Origin: an uncultured Alphaproteobacteria bacterium
GTDB lineage: Bacteria > Pseudomonadota > Alphaproteobacteria > Rs-D84
Reading direction: 5' to 3'
Length of the DNA stretch: 64,000 bases
Assembly: GCA_951801825.1 (NCBI GenBank)
Contig: CATOOF010000002.1
Span: 288,441 to 352,440, forward strand
Shown: positions 36,593-51,461 of the stretch, piece by piece
How the letters are laid out: each line of letters begins with the position of its first letter
Position numbering within the stretch: position 1 is the first letter of the stretch
Made by a program: the position numbers and the translations under genes
Notes under the pieces: generated by a model
The model's input: only the letters and a program-made list of their open reading frames with translations
Told to the model about the DNA's origin: nothing
Databases searched by the model: none

Positions 36593-36763
36593 ATGCGTGA
36601 TATTTTAATTAAATTACTAAATATGAATGATATGACTTTTGAGACCTTTAAACCCAAAAATCAAACCGAAGTCATTGCAGCTGCTCTGATTGATAAAATG
36701 CGCAATGGCGATATAAAAACAATTGAATACGTAGGAAAGATTGTTGAACAGCCCCAGTTGTAA
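36593..36763 (+). CDS. Small 56-aa hypothetical protein, phage-like
   Basis: MRDILIKLLNMNDMTFETFKPKNQTEVIAAALIDKMRNGDIKTIEYVGKIVEQPQL*; read manually. Confidence 0.45.
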   Translation: MRDILIKLLNMNDMTFETFKPKNQTEVIAAALIDKMRNGDIKTIEYVGKIVEQPQL

Positions 36764-36796
36764 ATATTCGGTTGGATTTTCTGCCCATTGGTGTTA
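36762..36796 (+). promoter_or_regulatory. Candidate sigma-70 promoter of the structured leader (coordinates approximate)
   Basis: TTGGAT-17 nt-TAATAT just before the leader. Confidence 0.45.
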
Positions 36797-36803
36797 ATAT
36801 AAA

Positions 36804-36985
36804 GGTGCATCGCAAAAGAGATGCCGAGGCGTAAAGAACCTCGCGATAGATGGTGCCGGATATGCACCACAAAAACATATCCCTGCTTCTGCGGGGGGCC
36901 GTTGGCTATACAACAGGGCATCGCCCAAAGGCCAACGGGGTCATTCTATCGTGATTTCTTTAACTCCCCGCGCCATCTTTTGCAC
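36804..36985 (+). ncRNA. Structured leader resembling phage C4 antisense RNA
   Basis: Nested hairpins CCGTTGGC/GCCAACGG (36899-36906/36931-36938), GGGC/GCCC, GCATC/GATGC, GGTGC/GCACC; distal complementarity AGATGGTGC (36848-36856) with GCGCCATCT (36970-36978) and CGATAGA (36844-36850) with TCTATCG (36945-36951). Confidence 0.6.
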
Positions 36986-37000
36986 AAAAAAGGTGGTTAT

Positions 37001-37765
37001 ATGAAAAAAGCAATAATTCCCATAATGATTCTTGGTGTCTGCGTGGCTAATGCCAGCGCATCGTCCGTGCCTTACCGCAATACTTATTATACTACAAGCG
37101 ATATGGTGCAAAGAGCCCTAAGAAGAACGCCACAAAAAGATGGAATCCCACGTCGCGCTTATAACTACATTCCCTCAAAAAGTCCCAACAGCGTAAAAAA
37201 AGATTACAAATGGTATATTGATTTTGGCCTTGGATTTGGATATGCCACCGCTGAATCTTCATTTGATGCTCAAGATTGGTGTAATCCTGCAGGATGTGTC
37301 AATGGCTATTGGGATACATTTCAATATCCCGGCAGTAATCAGAAAAGAAATATGGGTAAGGAAAACCCAGTTTTCGCTTCGCTTAAGTTCGCACGAAAAT
37401 ATGATAAATTTGCTTGGGGCGCATACGGGGATGCCGGAACACCCGCAAGTGCGCTGGGACTATTTGCAGAATTTGGTAATCAATGGCTTTTTGATTTGGG
37501 TATCGGTGCAGGACATAACTCTATTTTTGAGAAAACCACCGTAGATATACGCCTAGGTGTGGGATATGCATTTGAGATAACAGACCAGCTAGCCCTTGTT
37601 TCAACAGCCTTTTTTAATTATCAGATGGCCAGCAATGGCGAAGCAGAAGGCAAAGGCTATGACGACGAGAAAGGCACTGTTTGCTACAACTGCTGGACCC
37701 GCGGAACAGAGGTGCTCTCTTATTACAGCGGGGGCGTGAAAGCAGTTCTCAGGTATAGATTTTAA
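37001..37765 (+). CDS. Outer-membrane beta-barrel protein carried on the element
   Basis: Signal peptide MKKAIIPIMILGVCVANASAS; alternating beta pattern; C-terminal SYYSGGVKAVLRYRF; AGGTGG RBS. Confidence 0.75.
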   Translation: MKKAIIPIMILGVCVANASASSVPYRNTYYTTSDMVQRALRRTPQKDGIPRRAYNYIPSKSPNSVKKDYKWYIDFGLGFGYATAESSFDAQDWCNPAGCVNGYWDTFQYPGSNQKRNMGKENPVFASLKFARKYDKFAWGAYGDAGTPASALGLFAEFGNQWLFDLGIGAGHNSIFEKTTVDIRLGVGYAFEITDQLALVSTAFFNYQMASNGEAEGKGYDDEKGTVCYNCWTRGTEVLSYYSGGVKAVLRYRF

Positions 37766-38243: not shown

Positions 38244-39578
38244 TTGACAATGAAAATTACATTAAAAAATGTCGGTGTTATTAAAGACGCGACCGTTGAT
38301 TTAACGGGGCTTTCTGTCATTGTTGGAAAGAATGGCGCGGGAAAAAGCACCGTCGGGAAAACTATTTATGCAATAGTCAAGGCTGTTAAAGAAAAAGACG
38401 CCATCGTCAAACAAAAGAAAAAAGAATACACTGATTGGGTCTGCAAAAACACTTATTTTACAATTCAAAATCTTATAGGTCGGAATACTAATGCTCGGCA
38501 ATTAAACGCGGATGCTACATTGCTAGAAAACAATTTCCAGTTAGGTGCATTTGAGACCGATTTAATACATTTAATTGATGAAAATGATATAGATAGTTGC
38601 AAAAGACTAATTCAGTCAAGAATTAACTTAATAGATAGCTTTTCTAATGCTGTGGATGTTAGTGCCAAAAACAAAATAAAAGAAGGTCTGACTTCTTTAA
38701 AAAATTCTTTTGTGCCGTCAAATATGCAAAATGATATTCATTTAGCATTGGTTTATATGTGTCATAACATATTTGGCGACCAAATTATTAACGTACAATC
38801 TCATATAAAGTCAAAAGTGGCATTTGGTAATTTACTTGAATACACTGTTTCTAACAATGCAGATGTTTTGCCTTTGGCAGAAAGATTAAAAATTGATTAC
38901 GTTGATGATAGCATTACAGAAAAAATTTTCCAAGACGCCACACTTATTGAAACGCCATTATTGTTGCAAATGGAAAAAATCCAAAATTTCAATAGTTTGC
39001 CAGACTATTGGACGGATTTAATGAAAAAGGTCGCATCAGATTCAATAAATAGCACTCTGCAAAATACATTTATCCAAGAAGCTATATCCGATATTACAGA
39101 CGCATTAGGGGGTAAATTAGAATATAATGCTAAAGAGAGACGGTTTGATTTTATAAAGAAAGAATTTTCTGAAGGAACAAATCTGTCCATTAATAATGCT
39201 GCATCTGGCGAAAAAGTCCTTGGCATCTTCCAAAAACTTGCAAAAAACGGAATGTTTAGCCCAAGTAAAATTACAATTTTGGATGAGCCAGAGAATCATC
39301 TACACCCACAATGGCTTATGACTTTAGCGGAAGTATTGGTAAAGCTTGTAAAATCCGGTTGCCCGATAATGATAGCTTCTCATAGTCCAGACTTTTTACA
39401 AGCTCTGCGTTTTTATTCAAAAAAACATAAACTGGGACAAGTAAGGTATTATTTAGCTGATGGAGAAACCGGTATTATTTCTGATAAAACAGGCAAGGAA
39501 TACGAAATTTTCGATAACTTGGCAAAACCGATAAACGAAATATTTGAATCTGTTGTAAACGATACATTAAAAGATTAA
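38244..39578 (+). CDS. OLD/AAA (ABC-type) ATPase, candidate defence ATPase
   Basis: Walker A VGKNGAGKSTVGKTI; signature NNAASGEKVLG; Walker B TILDEPENHLHPQW; ASHSPDFLQAL. Confidence 0.85.
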   Translation: MTMKITLKNVGVIKDATVDLTGLSVIVGKNGAGKSTVGKTIYAIVKAVKEKDAIVKQKKKEYTDWVCKNTYFTIQNLIGRNTNARQLNADATLLENNFQLGAFETDLIHLIDENDIDSCKRLIQSRINLIDSFSNAVDVSAKNKIKEGLTSLKNSFVPSNMQNDIHLALVYMCHNIFGDQIINVQSHIKSKVAFGNLLEYTVSNNADVLPLAERLKIDYVDDSITEKIFQDATLIETPLLLQMEKIQNFNSLPDYWTDLMKKVASDSINSTLQNTFIQEAISDITDALGGKLEYNAKERRFDFIKKEFSEGTNLSINNAASGEKVLGIFQKLAKNGMFSPSKITILDEPENHLHPQWLMTLAEVLVKLVKSGCPIMIASHSPDFLQALRFYSKKHKLGQVRYYLADGETGIISDKTGKEYEIFDNLAKPINEIFESVVNDTLKD

Positions 39579-39598
39579 ACATATTAGAGTTCCATATT

Positions 39599-40123
39599 AT
39601 GGCAGACTATTCCAGATTTAAGAAATCTTTTTGTGAATGTTGCGATACTAATAAGAAAGGCTTATGCCGTTTAGGGTGGCCTTGCCCAACAGATAAGAAT
39701 AAAAATTTTATTGATTGGGAAGAAGTAGTGGGTACAAAGCCCGCACCGCAACATGATTGGCCACACTGCGATTCTGTATATATTAATAGTGATAATATCG
39801 CTTATCTTATAGAATTCAAAAATGTAAAATGGTTTTATGATGACAAAACAAATAAAATTAAGCCATTACCAAATATACAAAAAGAACTTGTAGATAAATT
39901 TGATTGCTCTATAAAGCTTTTACAAGAGGACGGTAATAATATAGAAAGATTTCAGTTGAAATGCGCATGTGATTTTAATGGTATAATGAAATTAAACAAA
40001 TCTATAGATGAATTAAAACGACAGCTACGTAATAATTTCTTTATATATTTAGAACAAAATAATATTTATTATGAAGAATGCCGAAGTTTATATTACAGCA
40101 TTAAATTTGTAGAGTGTCCCTAA
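39599..40123 (+). CDS. Hypothetical partner protein, possible PD-(D/E)xK nuclease with Cys-rich N-terminus
   Basis: CECCDTNKKGLCRLGWPC; HCDSVYINSDNIAYLIEFKNVKWF (D-x(n)-ExK spacing); 20 bp downstream of the ATPase. Confidence 0.5.
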   Translation: MADYSRFKKSFCECCDTNKKGLCRLGWPCPTDKNKNFIDWEEVVGTKPAPQHDWPHCDSVYINSDNIAYLIEFKNVKWFYDDKTNKIKPLPNIQKELVDKFDCSIKLLQEDGNNIERFQLKCACDFNGIMKLNKSIDELKRQLRNNFFIYLEQNNIYYEECRSLYYSIKFVECP

Positions 40124-40243: not shown

Positions 40244-41749
40244 ATGAAAGCAGTAATACTTGCTCGCGTTTCGTCGCGGGAACAAGAAAATGGGATGTCC
40301 ATTGATGCCCAGCTGGAAAATTTGAACAAATATATCCAGCGCAATGGACTATCGCTGCTTAAAACCTTTCAAATTACCGAAAGCTCAACAAAAGGCGACC
40401 GCAAAAAGTTCGTTGAAATGCTGAGTTTCGTCAAGGCCCAGCGCGAGAAAATCGCCATTGTTGCCGACTGTATTGACCGTATTCAGCGTAGTTTCAAGGA
40501 ATCCGTTGAACTGGATGAATTACGCAAGGCGGATAAAGTGGAACTGCATTTTATACGTGAAAACCTGCGTCTGCATCGTGATTCTAAGTCCAACGAGATT
40601 GCCATGTGGGATTTGGGTGTATTTGCCGCCAAAACCTATGTTGGCAATCTGCGTGATAATGTAAAGCGAAGCATTGACTATAACACTAAACACGGTATCT
40701 GGCAAAGTCAGTCTCCACTGGGTTATTTGAACCGGCGCGATGACAATAACAAGCCGATTATTATCGTTGACCCGGAACGCGCTCCGGGGATTAAGCGCCT
40801 GTTCGAAGAATACGCGTCCGGGCTGCGTACGATTGGCGAACTGGTTAAAAATGCCGCCGAATGGGGACTGACGAATAAAGCCACCGGAAAGCCCATTACC
40901 AAGGCCGCGGTATTTAATATCTTAAACAATCCCTTTTATTATGGGATGATGAGCGTCAAGGGTGCGCTTTATCCCCACATTTATCAGCCTTTGATTGATA
41001 AAACGCTGTTTGACAAGTGTCAGGCGATTATGAACAACAAAAATCGTACTCGGTTTAAGTATGCGGAAAAGCCTTATGTGTTTCGCGGACTGATAAAATG
41101 TGCCAATTGTGGTTGTGCGATTACCAGCGACACAAAGACAAAGCCCAGCGGAAAAACCTATACATACCTATCTTGTTCACATTTTAAGGGGAATTGCACA
41201 CAACCGGCGGTAAATGAAAATGTATTATTACAACAGATTCAGGACGAGGTATTAAAAAAGCTATCCTTTCCGCGCGATATTATGCAGGAGGTGGCAAAGT
41301 GCCTGACAAATATATCACAAGCGGAAAATGCCTATGCGCTGGCAGAGATAGACAATCTGCGTAAAAAGCAAGATGCACTAAAGACCAAAAGAAGCCGTCT
41401 GTTGGACTTCTTACTGGCGGGCAATATTACACAGGAAGAATATGCCGATAAAAAAAATGATATAGAGAAAGAACTGTATGATGTGGGTGTGCGTTTGGCA
41501 GCACATTCCAAGGCAGATGGTGCATTTATAACGACAGTGGAATCCCTGTTGACCGTGGCATCGCACGCGGCGGAATTATTCCAGAGTTCGAAAGTAGAAC
41601 AAAAACGTCAGATTATTAACTTGCTACTTTCGAACTGCGAATTGAAAGATAAAAAGTTAGTATATTCAATAAGAAAACCGTTCAATATCCTGATGGATTT
41701 GAACGGTCGTAAAGCTTGGTTGGGGCAGCTGGATTCGAACCAACACTGA
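40244..41749 (+). CDS. Large serine recombinase (resolvase, recombinase, zinc-ribbon and coiled-coil domains)
   Basis: VILARVSSREQENGMSIDAQLENL; KAAVFNILNNPFYYG; FRGLIKCANCGCAIT...LSCSHFKGNC. Confidence 0.95.
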   Translation: MKAVILARVSSREQENGMSIDAQLENLNKYIQRNGLSLLKTFQITESSTKGDRKKFVEMLSFVKAQREKIAIVADCIDRIQRSFKESVELDELRKADKVELHFIRENLRLHRDSKSNEIAMWDLGVFAAKTYVGNLRDNVKRSIDYNTKHGIWQSQSPLGYLNRRDDNNKPIIIVDPERAPGIKRLFEEYASGLRTIGELVKNAAEWGLTNKATGKPITKAAVFNILNNPFYYGMMSVKGALYPHIYQPLIDKTLFDKCQAIMNNKNRTRFKYAEKPYVFRGLIKCANCGCAITSDTKTKPSGKTYTYLSCSHFKGNCTQPAVNENVLLQQIQDEVLKKLSFPRDIMQEVAKCLTNISQAENAYALAEIDNLRKKQDALKTKRSRLLDFLLAGNITQEEYADKKNDIEKELYDVGVRLAAHSKADGAFITTVESLLTVASHAAELFQSSKVEQKRQIINLLLSNCELKDKKLVYSIRKPFNILMDLNGRKAWLGQLDSNQH

Positions 41750-41790
41750 CGGAGTCAGAGTCCGGAGTTCTACCGTTAAACTATGCCCCA
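41717..41790 (-). tRNA. tRNA-Gln(CTG)
   Basis: TGGGGCA...CCGGA CTCTGAC TCCGT...GTTGG TTCGAAT CCAGC TGCCCCA ACCA. Confidence 0.93.
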
Positions 41791-47137: not shown

Positions 47138-47148
47138 ATGTACAAAAA

Positions 47149-47245
47149 AAACGGAGGTTTGGATTATACACCTATTCGGGTACAAAATATCACTATTTCC
47201 GCCACAGTGTCAATTAGATTTTATGCCGATTTTAAACCTCCGTTT
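47149..47245. repeat. 12-bp perfect inverted repeats flanking 73 bp
   Basis: AAACGGAGGTTT (47149-47160) and AAACCTCCGTTT (47234-47245). Confidence 0.85.
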
Positions 47246-47269
47246 GGATACAGCATAAGGAGAAAAAAT

Positions 47270-48217
47270 ATGAATAGATTCTTTATACGACTAATCGGAG
47301 GAGCAATTGCATGCACCTGTGGTCTAATAAATGCGGCCAAGGCCATAAATTGTAATATTGGCGAAACATTCAGCGGAACCACATCCTATTATGCGAAACA
47401 AACATGTCCGGCCACAACCGGATACAGGGCATACAGCATGGATAAAAACTTTCCGGGCGTGAGCGACACCGGCAACGAGTATGCCGCGTATACAAATCAA
47501 ACCCTGTCATCTACGTCCGTGCCCAGAATTATCGGCCTGTCCAATGTATGCGAAACCAAAACAAATGCCTTACTCGCCGGGGGTACATTCTTTGTGCCAT
47601 GCAGCGAAAACCGCACACCATTTGTAACCATAACCGACACAGACAGCCAAGGCAACGAACGCAAATTAGTACGTCAAACATGTTCTAATCTTGACGCCTC
47701 TAGCGGATTATATTTGGGCGCGTGTATTCTGGACGGCAGCGGCCAGGTAATAACACTATTTGACGACTTTTTTAAGACCTATGGCGGGTGCCTGTGCCCG
47801 GAAGGCCAGACATGCTCTAATGAATCCGGGGATTCTGGCGATTCCGGGAATACGGGATCGGCCGGATCTGCGGATGGCTGCAAATTCTATTACTATAACA
47901 CGGGTATTGGCGAAACCAGCGCTTATGTATTTGTCGGATGCAGACCGGGATATTATCTAAATCGCGAAATAGAAAGTGGCGAAACATTTGTCTCAAAAAA
48001 CGCAATAGACAAATTATGCTCGCCATGTTCGGGCATGAAATATAATGTCAGCAACGGAACCGTTTCTACATACAAGCCAACCGACGGCGAAACGGGGGCA
48101 AACGGGATTTGGTGGAAATCTGACGGCATGGGTATTAACTCTTGCTATGCCAATGGCAATGTCAACGATGGGGCCGGAACATTCTCGTTCGAAACAAACT
48201 GTACATATGGCGGATAA
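47270..48217 (+). CDS. Cys-rich secreted protein, signature family
   Basis: Signal peptide MNRFFIRLIGGAIACTCGLINAAKA; INSCYANGNVNDGAGTFSFETNCTYGG. Confidence 0.7.
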   Translation: MNRFFIRLIGGAIACTCGLINAAKAINCNIGETFSGTTSYYAKQTCPATTGYRAYSMDKNFPGVSDTGNEYAAYTNQTLSSTSVPRIIGLSNVCETKTNALLAGGTFFVPCSENRTPFVTITDTDSQGNERKLVRQTCSNLDASSGLYLGACILDGSGQVITLFDDFFKTYGGCLCPEGQTCSNESGDSGDSGNTGSAGSADGCKFYYYNTGIGETSAYVFVGCRPGYYLNREIESGETFVSKNAIDKLCSPCSGMKYNVSNGTVSTYKPTDGETGANGIWWKSDGMGINSCYANGNVNDGAGTFSFETNCTYGG

Positions 48218-50406: not shown

Positions 50407-50643
50407 ATGAATCAACAGGGATGTTGGCTCAGGGACGTCAGAAATCCTTTACTTAACCCGTGCACGTGCGCGGCATCCGACAAAAATGTCGGCGCAACAA
50501 TAATGCGCCGTATGTTTTTCCCGACTGATACCCGGTCGGGGGTCCGGCGATTATATAACAGCGCATATGCGTAAAAATCGCCGGGGTCATTGTTAAGTAT
50601 GATTTTCTGAAATCCCCGACCGCCAAACCTTTGGCGGTTTTTT
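50407..50643 (+). ncRNA. Candidate structured ncRNA or leader of about 235 nt with its own promoter and terminator
   Basis: Closing stem TACTTAAC/GTTAAGTA (50450-50457/50592-50599) extended by CAGAAATC/GATTTTCTG; internal hairpins CCGACA/TGTCGG, CCCGAC/GTCGGG, CCGGCGATT/AATCGCCGG; terminator at 50620. Confidence 0.55.
50620..50643 (+). terminator. Rho-independent terminator upstream of a Cys-rich gene
   Basis: CCGCCAAA-cc-TTTGGCGG-TTTTTT. Confidence 0.85.
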
Positions 50644-50675: not shown

Positions 50676-51461
50676 ATGAAAATCAAACATTTTATTATCG
50701 CGGCATCAACCATAATGCCGATGGGCGCCATGGCCGGACCATGCGATGAAATATTCGGCAGCCACAACTGTCTTGCATGGGCCGAAGAATCTATCATTAA
50801 TCTGCAAGAATGCTCCTGTGGGCATTGCCCCAGCGGAACAGTTCCGCGCGGCTCTGGTTTTGAAACACATAAAACTGGCACGTACAACAATGTCAGATAT
50901 ACACTGCATTCAGGATGCGCGGTCGAATGCAGCTGTGCCAACAACCCAAACCCCGAAAGACGCGGCGGCACATGCGAGGCTCAAGAAACAAACATGACCG
51001 CACCAGACTATTCAACATGCACCGCAACCCCAACAGGCGCCAAGCTGTGCAATACAACAACAAACAAATGCAACGACACGTCCGTTACAATCGCAGGCCA
51101 GATATACTGTAAGCTGAACGGACAGACATGCTCGCTGCCATTTGCCGCCAGTGCAATGTTGGCATCACCATACTGCAGCAATGGGGCCGCCGCACCCCAA
51201 GGCGGGGTAAGCTGCCTGGTGGTTGAGTGCAAGCAAAACGCCATCCCAGGCGCATCACGCAGTAATTGCATGTGCAACACAGGATACTATATGAACACAT
51301 CAAGCTTTACCTGTGAAAAATGTCCAAACCCAATGCCCCCGGCAACAACAAGCACACCGGGCGCGACCGATATAACACAATGCTATATACCCGCAGGAGC
51401 CACGCTGACCGAGACCGCCGGAACATATAAATATATTGAAAACTGTTCATACACCGAATAA
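50676..51461 (+). CDS. Cys-rich secreted protein, signature family
   Basis: Signal peptide MKIKHFIIAASTIMPMGAMA; GYYMNTSSFTCEKCPNPMPP...ITQCYIPAGATLTETAGTYKYIENCSYTE. Confidence 0.75.
   Translation: MKIKHFIIAASTIMPMGAMAGPCDEIFGSHNCLAWAEESIINLQECSCGHCPSGTVPRGSGFETHKTGTYNNVRYTLHSGCAVECSCANNPNPERRGGTCEAQETNMTAPDYSTCTATPTGAKLCNTTTNKCNDTSVTIAGQIYCKLNGQTCSLPFAASAMLASPYCSNGAAAPQGGVSCLVVECKQNAIPGASRSNCMCNTGYYMNTSSFTCEKCPNPMPPATTSTPGATDITQCYIPAGATLTETAGTYKYIENCSYTE

Follow-up and report, generated by a model that had tools for sequence, protein, structure and literature searches.

Leader and genomic setting

The window, a stretch of 64,000 nucleotides from contig CATOOF010000002.1 of an uncultured Alphaproteobacteria bacterium, contains a gene for a 254-aa protein of the outer-membrane beta-barrel type (OMP), whose product has no Pfam or PHROG match. 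A structured leader (36762-37005) stands directly before the ribosome-binding site (RBS) and ATG of this gene, as had been stated in an earlier note on this DNA (Table 1). The minimum free energy of the leader is -79.3 kcal/mol, compared with -58.3 kcal/mol for dinucleotide shuffles (z -5.2), and the nested hairpins given in the note, CCGTTGGC/GCCAACGG around GGGC/GCCC (36899-36938), are present as written. The note had also pointed out two complementarities, one of CGATAGA with TCTATCG (termed b1 and b' here) and one of AGATGGTGC (36848-36856) with GCGCCATCT, and had missed a third (a1/a'), between TAAAGAA in the loop of the CGAGG/CCTCG hairpin and TTCTTTA. A 7-bp match alone is within chance, as 31 of 100 mononucleotide-shuffled leaders contain a long-range match of at least 7 bp; the case for the window leader therefore rests on its relatives.

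Regarding the promoter, a consensus scan of the window leader returned no sigma-70 promoter, including the proposed TTGGAT-17-TAATAT. The TAATAT of that proposal is nevertheless overlapped by TATAAA, which occupies the family -10 position: in class A copies (defined below), the TATAAT-like box recurs about 24 nt before a1, and this spacing leads to TATAAA in the window. Transcription would thus start at about 36809-36811. Reading the leader as coding sequence was considered, since no stop codon interrupts the frame between 36821 and the end of the gene, and was rejected because the signal peptide begins at 37001 and the changes in the helices are compensatory. An integron attC site was considered as well, since sRNA-Xcc1 (see below) lies in cassettes; the RYYYAAC/GTTRRRY signature is absent by eye.

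The window copy lies within a low-GC stretch that also holds a large serine recombinase. The recombinase is sporadic among relatives, and one of them (G004) has, before a 74% identical recombinase, a class B copy together with another signal-peptide gene, so that the combination of the RNA and exported cargo beside this recombinase recurs. The recombinase and its patchy distribution are consistent with the earlier assignment to a mobile element, but there is no sign of a duplicated attachment site: no duplication of at least 12 nt was found at the tRNA-Gln, and a repeat scan of the element gave nothing convincing. The recombinase ORF reads into the tRNA-Gln (40244-41790), and several relatives have short matches to its C-terminal part only. 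The same element carries an AAA_15/AAA_21 (OLD/AbiEii-like) ATPase and a 174-aa protein without a known family (38244-40123), a candidate defence system. Elsewhere in the window, a large Cys-rich exported protein (47138-48217) has a C-terminal pattern like that of the genes behind the RNA; no module was detected before it.

Table 1. Features of the leader and of the associated genes in the window (all on the + strand)
Feature	Position	Basis or remark
Probable -10 box TATAAA	36798..36803	TATAAT-like box (at most one mismatch) before a1 in 84/91 copies
H1 hairpin GCATC/GATGC	36807..36824	equivalents in related class A copies, by eye
H2 hairpin CGAGG/CCTCG, a1 in loop	36825..36843	comparison of copies
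a1 segment TAAAGAA, complementary to a'	36832..36838	own versus swapped test
b1 segment CGATAGA, complementary to b'	36844..36850	own versus swapped test
H4 GGTGC/GCACC; loop GGATAT can pair with downstream ATATCC (H-type pseudoknot)	36852..36882	
H6 hairpin CCCTGC/GCGGGG, rival of P1 for the same G-run	36881..36896	
C4-like module	36889..36976	model R1, 91.3 bits
P1	36890-36898/36964-36972	module stem
P2	36899-36906/36931-36938	module stem
P2b	36916-36918/36924-36926	module stem
P3	36939-36944/36951-36956	module stem
b' segment TCTATCG, P3 loop	36945..36951	
a' segment TTCTTTA	36956..36962	
GCCA after closing stem, as in RNase P substrates	36972..36975	RCCA count across copies
Class A output hairpin GCCATCTTTT/AAAAGGTGGT, which buries the OMP gene's Shine-Dalgarno	36972..36997	fold -11.8 kcal/mol
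OMP gene, signal peptide, product ends ...LRYRF	37001..37765	sequence
Large serine recombinase, ORF end inside tRNA-Gln	40244..41749	Pfam Resolvase, Recombinase, Zn_ribbon_recom
Second module copy, class B, with its own a1 (TCAGAAA), b1 (TACTTAAC) and terminator	50534..50624	R1, 81.9 bits
Cys-rich signal-peptide protein behind the second copy	50676..51461	

A family of structured RNAs

When the leader DNA was searched against the organism's own genome (897 kb in 4 contigs), four copies were found, and relatives contained many more. A covariance model of the 3' module, R1, was built from 21 copies; it detects at least 11 copies in the own genome, two of them in the window, and 48 in one relative of about 1 Mb, the highest number per genome. 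The R1 module is present in 167 of 191 genomes of the order and in 16 of 23 genera. Over 90 distinct sequences, 97.8% of the alignment cells of the P1-P3 structure are paired and 23 of 26 pairs have changes on both sides. The covariation score is 0.486, compared with 0.184 after shuffling, and all shuffled and slid controls score far lower; these values come from an alignment fitted to the R1 model, and a MAFFT alignment gives the same picture. Judged from these searches and alignments, the leader is one copy of a large structured-RNA family of C4-like build that occurs throughout an order of small-genome uncultured Alphaproteobacteria. The family is absent from Rfam 15 and from the open-access literature searched.

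The copies can be categorized into two classes. In class A (the window copy, L002, L006-L010 and L026), the 5' half is compact, and the last element is a hairpin that covers the Shine-Dalgarno of the gene behind it. In class B, to which most copies belong, including the second one in the window, the 5' half is longer, and GACCGCCA...TGGCGGTT followed by a T-run forms an intrinsic terminator at the 3' end. A stem of at least four Watson-Crick pairs forms around a1 in 69% of copies (30% with swapped partners), and a competing hairpin partner of at least 5 bp stands just upstream of the P1 5' strand, as H6 does, in 48% (7% with shuffled upstream sequence). Across class A copies, the H4 loop and its ATATCC partner track each other, as judged by eye. 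At G000:C2:62612-62681 (L123:2612-2681), the module occurs as degenerate tandem repeats with no obvious gene behind them.

Products with a signal peptide were predicted behind 58 of 91 copies, compared with 179 of 877 long ORFs of the own genome, by a simple heuristic that undercounts, several of its misses being obvious signal peptides. Named families behind the copies are few (Chlamydia-type PMP repeats, the YadA anchor and the OMP beta-barrel); the others include an EcoRI methylase, DUF4268, glycosyltransferases and HTH proteins. No antirepressor is among the families listed for 66 downstream proteins of alphaproteobacterial copies. An EcoRI-type methylase and DUF4268 proteins (at L091:468-1454, L006 and L008) stand directly behind RNA copies, so use of the switch proposed below would not be limited to surface proteins. 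Some copies are followed by a gene without an exported product, or by no gene at all.

Self-complementarity private to each locus

The longest Watson-Crick match of b' and of a' was determined in fixed upstream and downstream zones, with partners swapped between copies as the control. A match of at least 7 bp between b' and its own upstream b1 is found in 91% of class A copies (3% swapped) and 86% of class B copies (15% swapped), and the CGATAGA/TCTATCG pairing of the earlier note is conserved accordingly. Within a single genome, 86-100% of copies have a b' that matches their own b1, whereas only about 0-3% of cross pairs match, and the long-range b1/b' helix differs in sequence in nearly every copy. 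Because b' matches its own b1 and rarely that of another copy, the address is private to the locus. The a'/a1 match at 7 bp occurs in about 50% of copies versus 21-24% of swapped pairs, a control inflated by the partly shared motif in a'. The AGATGGTGC/GCGCCATCT pairing, though present in the window, finds no support among relatives: in 11 class A copies, with G-U allowed, it was found in 64% versus 48% swapped.

At sRNA-Xcc1 (RF02221) and C4 loci, the same segments can also pair with a downstream a2/b2, and the downstream zone of these control loci gave matches for b' in 50% (8% swapped) and a' in 64% (9% swapped) at sRNA-Xcc1 loci, and for b' in 100% (8% swapped) at C4 loci. For 89 alphaproteobacterial copies, b' matches within 0-75 nt downstream in 4% versus 8% swapped, that is, without an a2/b2. 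A genome-wide short-word search for a2b2 in trans returned as many matches as controls.

Alternative folds and the output of the leader

Nearest-neighbour folding was applied to 70 leaders, which were selected for a clear a1 and b1, with energies that ignore pseudoknots. In the predicted folds, both a1:a' and b1:b' form in all 70 and P1 in none (mean -95.0 kcal/mol); when a1b1 is masked, P1 forms in 24 (mean -83.1 kcal/mol). One class B leader, when folded with a1b1 masked, retains the terminator alongside a shortened P1, and the direction of the switch is therefore not fixed by energetics.

A hairpin lies directly 3' of the module in 89 of 91 copies, with a T-rich tail in 73, and begins inside the P1 3' strand in 78 of the 89; the 5' arm of the terminator reaches into P1 in most copies. 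The distance from the module end to the start codon has a median of 46 nt, which leaves little room for another promoter, and the gene would most simply be expressed by read-through of the same transcript. RCCA follows the closing stem in 41 of 91 copies (45%, against a background of 3%), a signature that is partly confounded with the terminator and is compatible with RNase P processing at the module base.

A proposed self-addressed switch and its alternatives

Considering these features together, we propose, with a probability of roughly 0.6, that a self-addressed RNA module of the C4 type has been reused in this leader to attenuate a surface gene, and that it acts as a locus-specific feedback switch that is off by default. 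The transcript would start just upstream of a1/b1, and in the nascent RNA a1b1 would pair with b'a', so that P1 could not close. With P1 open, the terminator of most copies, or the Shine-Dalgarno hairpin of the window copy, would keep the gene off. Occupation of a1b1, most simply by a module processed from a transcript made earlier at that locus, would allow P1-P3 to close, upon which RNase P could cut at the base and the downstream outcome would change. The architecture behind this proposal (the module, its private self-complementarity, the output hairpins, the exported cargo and the missing downstream target) is well supported by the comparison of copies; default-off attenuation, release by RNase P and feedback of the released module on a1b1 are what we infer from it. 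The a1/a' complementarity, weaker than b1/b' and partly a shared motif, argues against the attenuator, as do the copies that lack an exported gene. The idea of the earlier note that a phage-immunity-type RNA has been coupled to a surface protein thus finds support in its core, with hundreds of loci and a C4 organisation, although the Rfam C4 model does not match the RNA.

More tentatively, a domesticated phage immunity RNA, multiplied to dozens of mutually orthogonal switches per genome, may set which surface proteins (adhesins, autotransporters, OMPs and Cys-rich proteins) are displayed. This would amount to RNA-based surface variation without DNA rearrangement, possibly heritable or stochastic.

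It is unlikely that the modules are trans-acting sRNAs, for example a chromosomal immunity against phages with matching a2b2, whose position before surface genes is incidental. Their own promoter and terminator would yield a free RNA of roughly 240 nt, the b' sequences are diverse, and the same role has been proposed for the many C4-like RNAs of Acinetobacter baumannii in passages of PMC5320573. Against it stand the strong link to exported-protein genes, which begin at a fixed short distance of about 45 nt after the module, and the co-variation of b' with b1 of the same leader; two copies also had no match by DNA similarity in 50,697 phage records, among which phages of these hosts are little sampled. 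An ordinary attenuator or riboswitch for a small molecule or protein, with a likeness to C4 due to convergence, would account for two exclusive folds and a terminator or Shine-Dalgarno hairpin in one leader. This explanation appears distinctly improbable, as the conserved part is common, stem by stem and reciprocally via R1 and RF02221, to sRNA-Xcc1, and as the sequences of the long-range helices are free to vary, which would not be expected of a ligand pocket. Classical C4 action, the repression by pairing at the RBS that the earlier note invoked, in which b' and a' of the processed RNA bind a2/b2 at the ribosome site of the downstream gene, retains hardly any probability and, on the sequence comparison, is already refuted for the alphaproteobacterial family as a whole: the module and a1b1 layout are the same and a2/b2 is present at sRNA-Xcc1 and C4 loci, but in the alphaproteobacterial copies none is visible out to 380 nt.

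If the preferred reading of a self-addressed switch is correct, a phage superinfection-immunity device would have been reused genome-wide before surface genes, and the private addresses would provide a natural set of orthogonal RNA switches. The family adds to the C4 group a widespread RNA that Rfam does not hold.

Relation to known RNAs

The Rfam C4 model (RF01695), the check suggested in the earlier note, has no match in the window leader at the gathering cut-off or at a permissive E-value (E<=10), and none in the own genome; R1 in turn matches no genuine C4 locus tested. The sole Rfam match of the window leader, in a permissive search, is to sRNA-Xcc1 (29.3 bits, gathering cut-off 53), and other copies in the genus reach up to 39.7 bits, also below the cut-off. 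R1 matches eight RF02221 loci at the exact Rfam positions (E 2e-9 to 2.5e-3, best 51 bits).

RF02221 is present in 52 of 299 sampled Pseudomonadota genomes. At its loci, a hairpin just upstream of the 87-nt Rfam model bears in its loop an a1 complementary to a' before the 3' closing strand; b1 follows the a1 hairpin and is complementary to the P3 loop (b'), and a2...b2 immediately precedes the ribosome site of the following gene. The elements are ordered in this way at genuine C4 loci, too. The full a1b1/b'a'/a2b2 layout is seen among loci L034-L053 (e.g., L034, L037, L040, L041 and L052), often with an antirepressor or SymE gene behind; proteins behind sRNA-Xcc1 and C4 loci include Bro-N, P22_AR_N, AntA, KilA-N and SymE. 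sRNA-Xcc1 has been reported in Xanthomonas integron cassettes upstream of symE (PMC12444791), and the literature passages on it considered here do not describe the upstream a1/b1 and a2/b2 layout. Regarded in the literature as a trans-acting virulence sRNA, it resembles, in this layout, a mature RNA of the C4 type more than a virulence sRNA that stands by itself, and we suggest that it represents the mature portion of an antirepressor or toxin leader of the C4 type. The window family shares with it the P1-P2-P3 module, the upstream a1 hairpin and b1. It lacks both the a2/b2 that sRNA-Xcc1 loci carry at the ribosome site and the antirepressor or SymE genes that often follow them.

The C4 RNA of P1/P7 is described, in passages of PMC5320573, as having three stems with an RNase P cut at the P1 base, b' occluding the ribosome site and a' giving specificity. 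Like this RNA and the P4 CI RNA, the window family has the a1-b1...[P1 P2 P3 with b', a'] layout, that is, a module of three stems in which a loop contains b' and a' precedes the closing strand, and upstream a1/b1 complementary to a'/b', together with an RNase P-like closing stem. Unlike them, it has no model match in either direction, no a2/b2 at the ribosome site and no phage antirepressor operon, and most of its copies end in an intrinsic terminator. The chromosomal 'Group 1' sRNAs of A. baumannii, C4-like RNAs in multiple copies with varied a' regions, resemble the family in their number per genome; in contrast to it, they match Rfam C4, and the passages describing them mention no link to surface genes (PMC5320573).

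IsrK of the Salmonella prophage Gifsy-1 provides a precedent: it is a leader RNA with a terminator, read-through of which gives the mRNA, and its short form acts in trans on that mRNA. Its authors regard it as a structural homologue of the P4 SeqA RNA, with alternative folds governing the downstream gene (PMC4825925). Unlike the window family, IsrK is a single prophage locus controlling an antirepressor/antiterminator, and the likeness is one of description. The window family, sRNA-Xcc1 and C4 share one layout, the first two being recognisably related in both sequence and structure, and sRNA-Xcc1 is the nearer relative of the window family.
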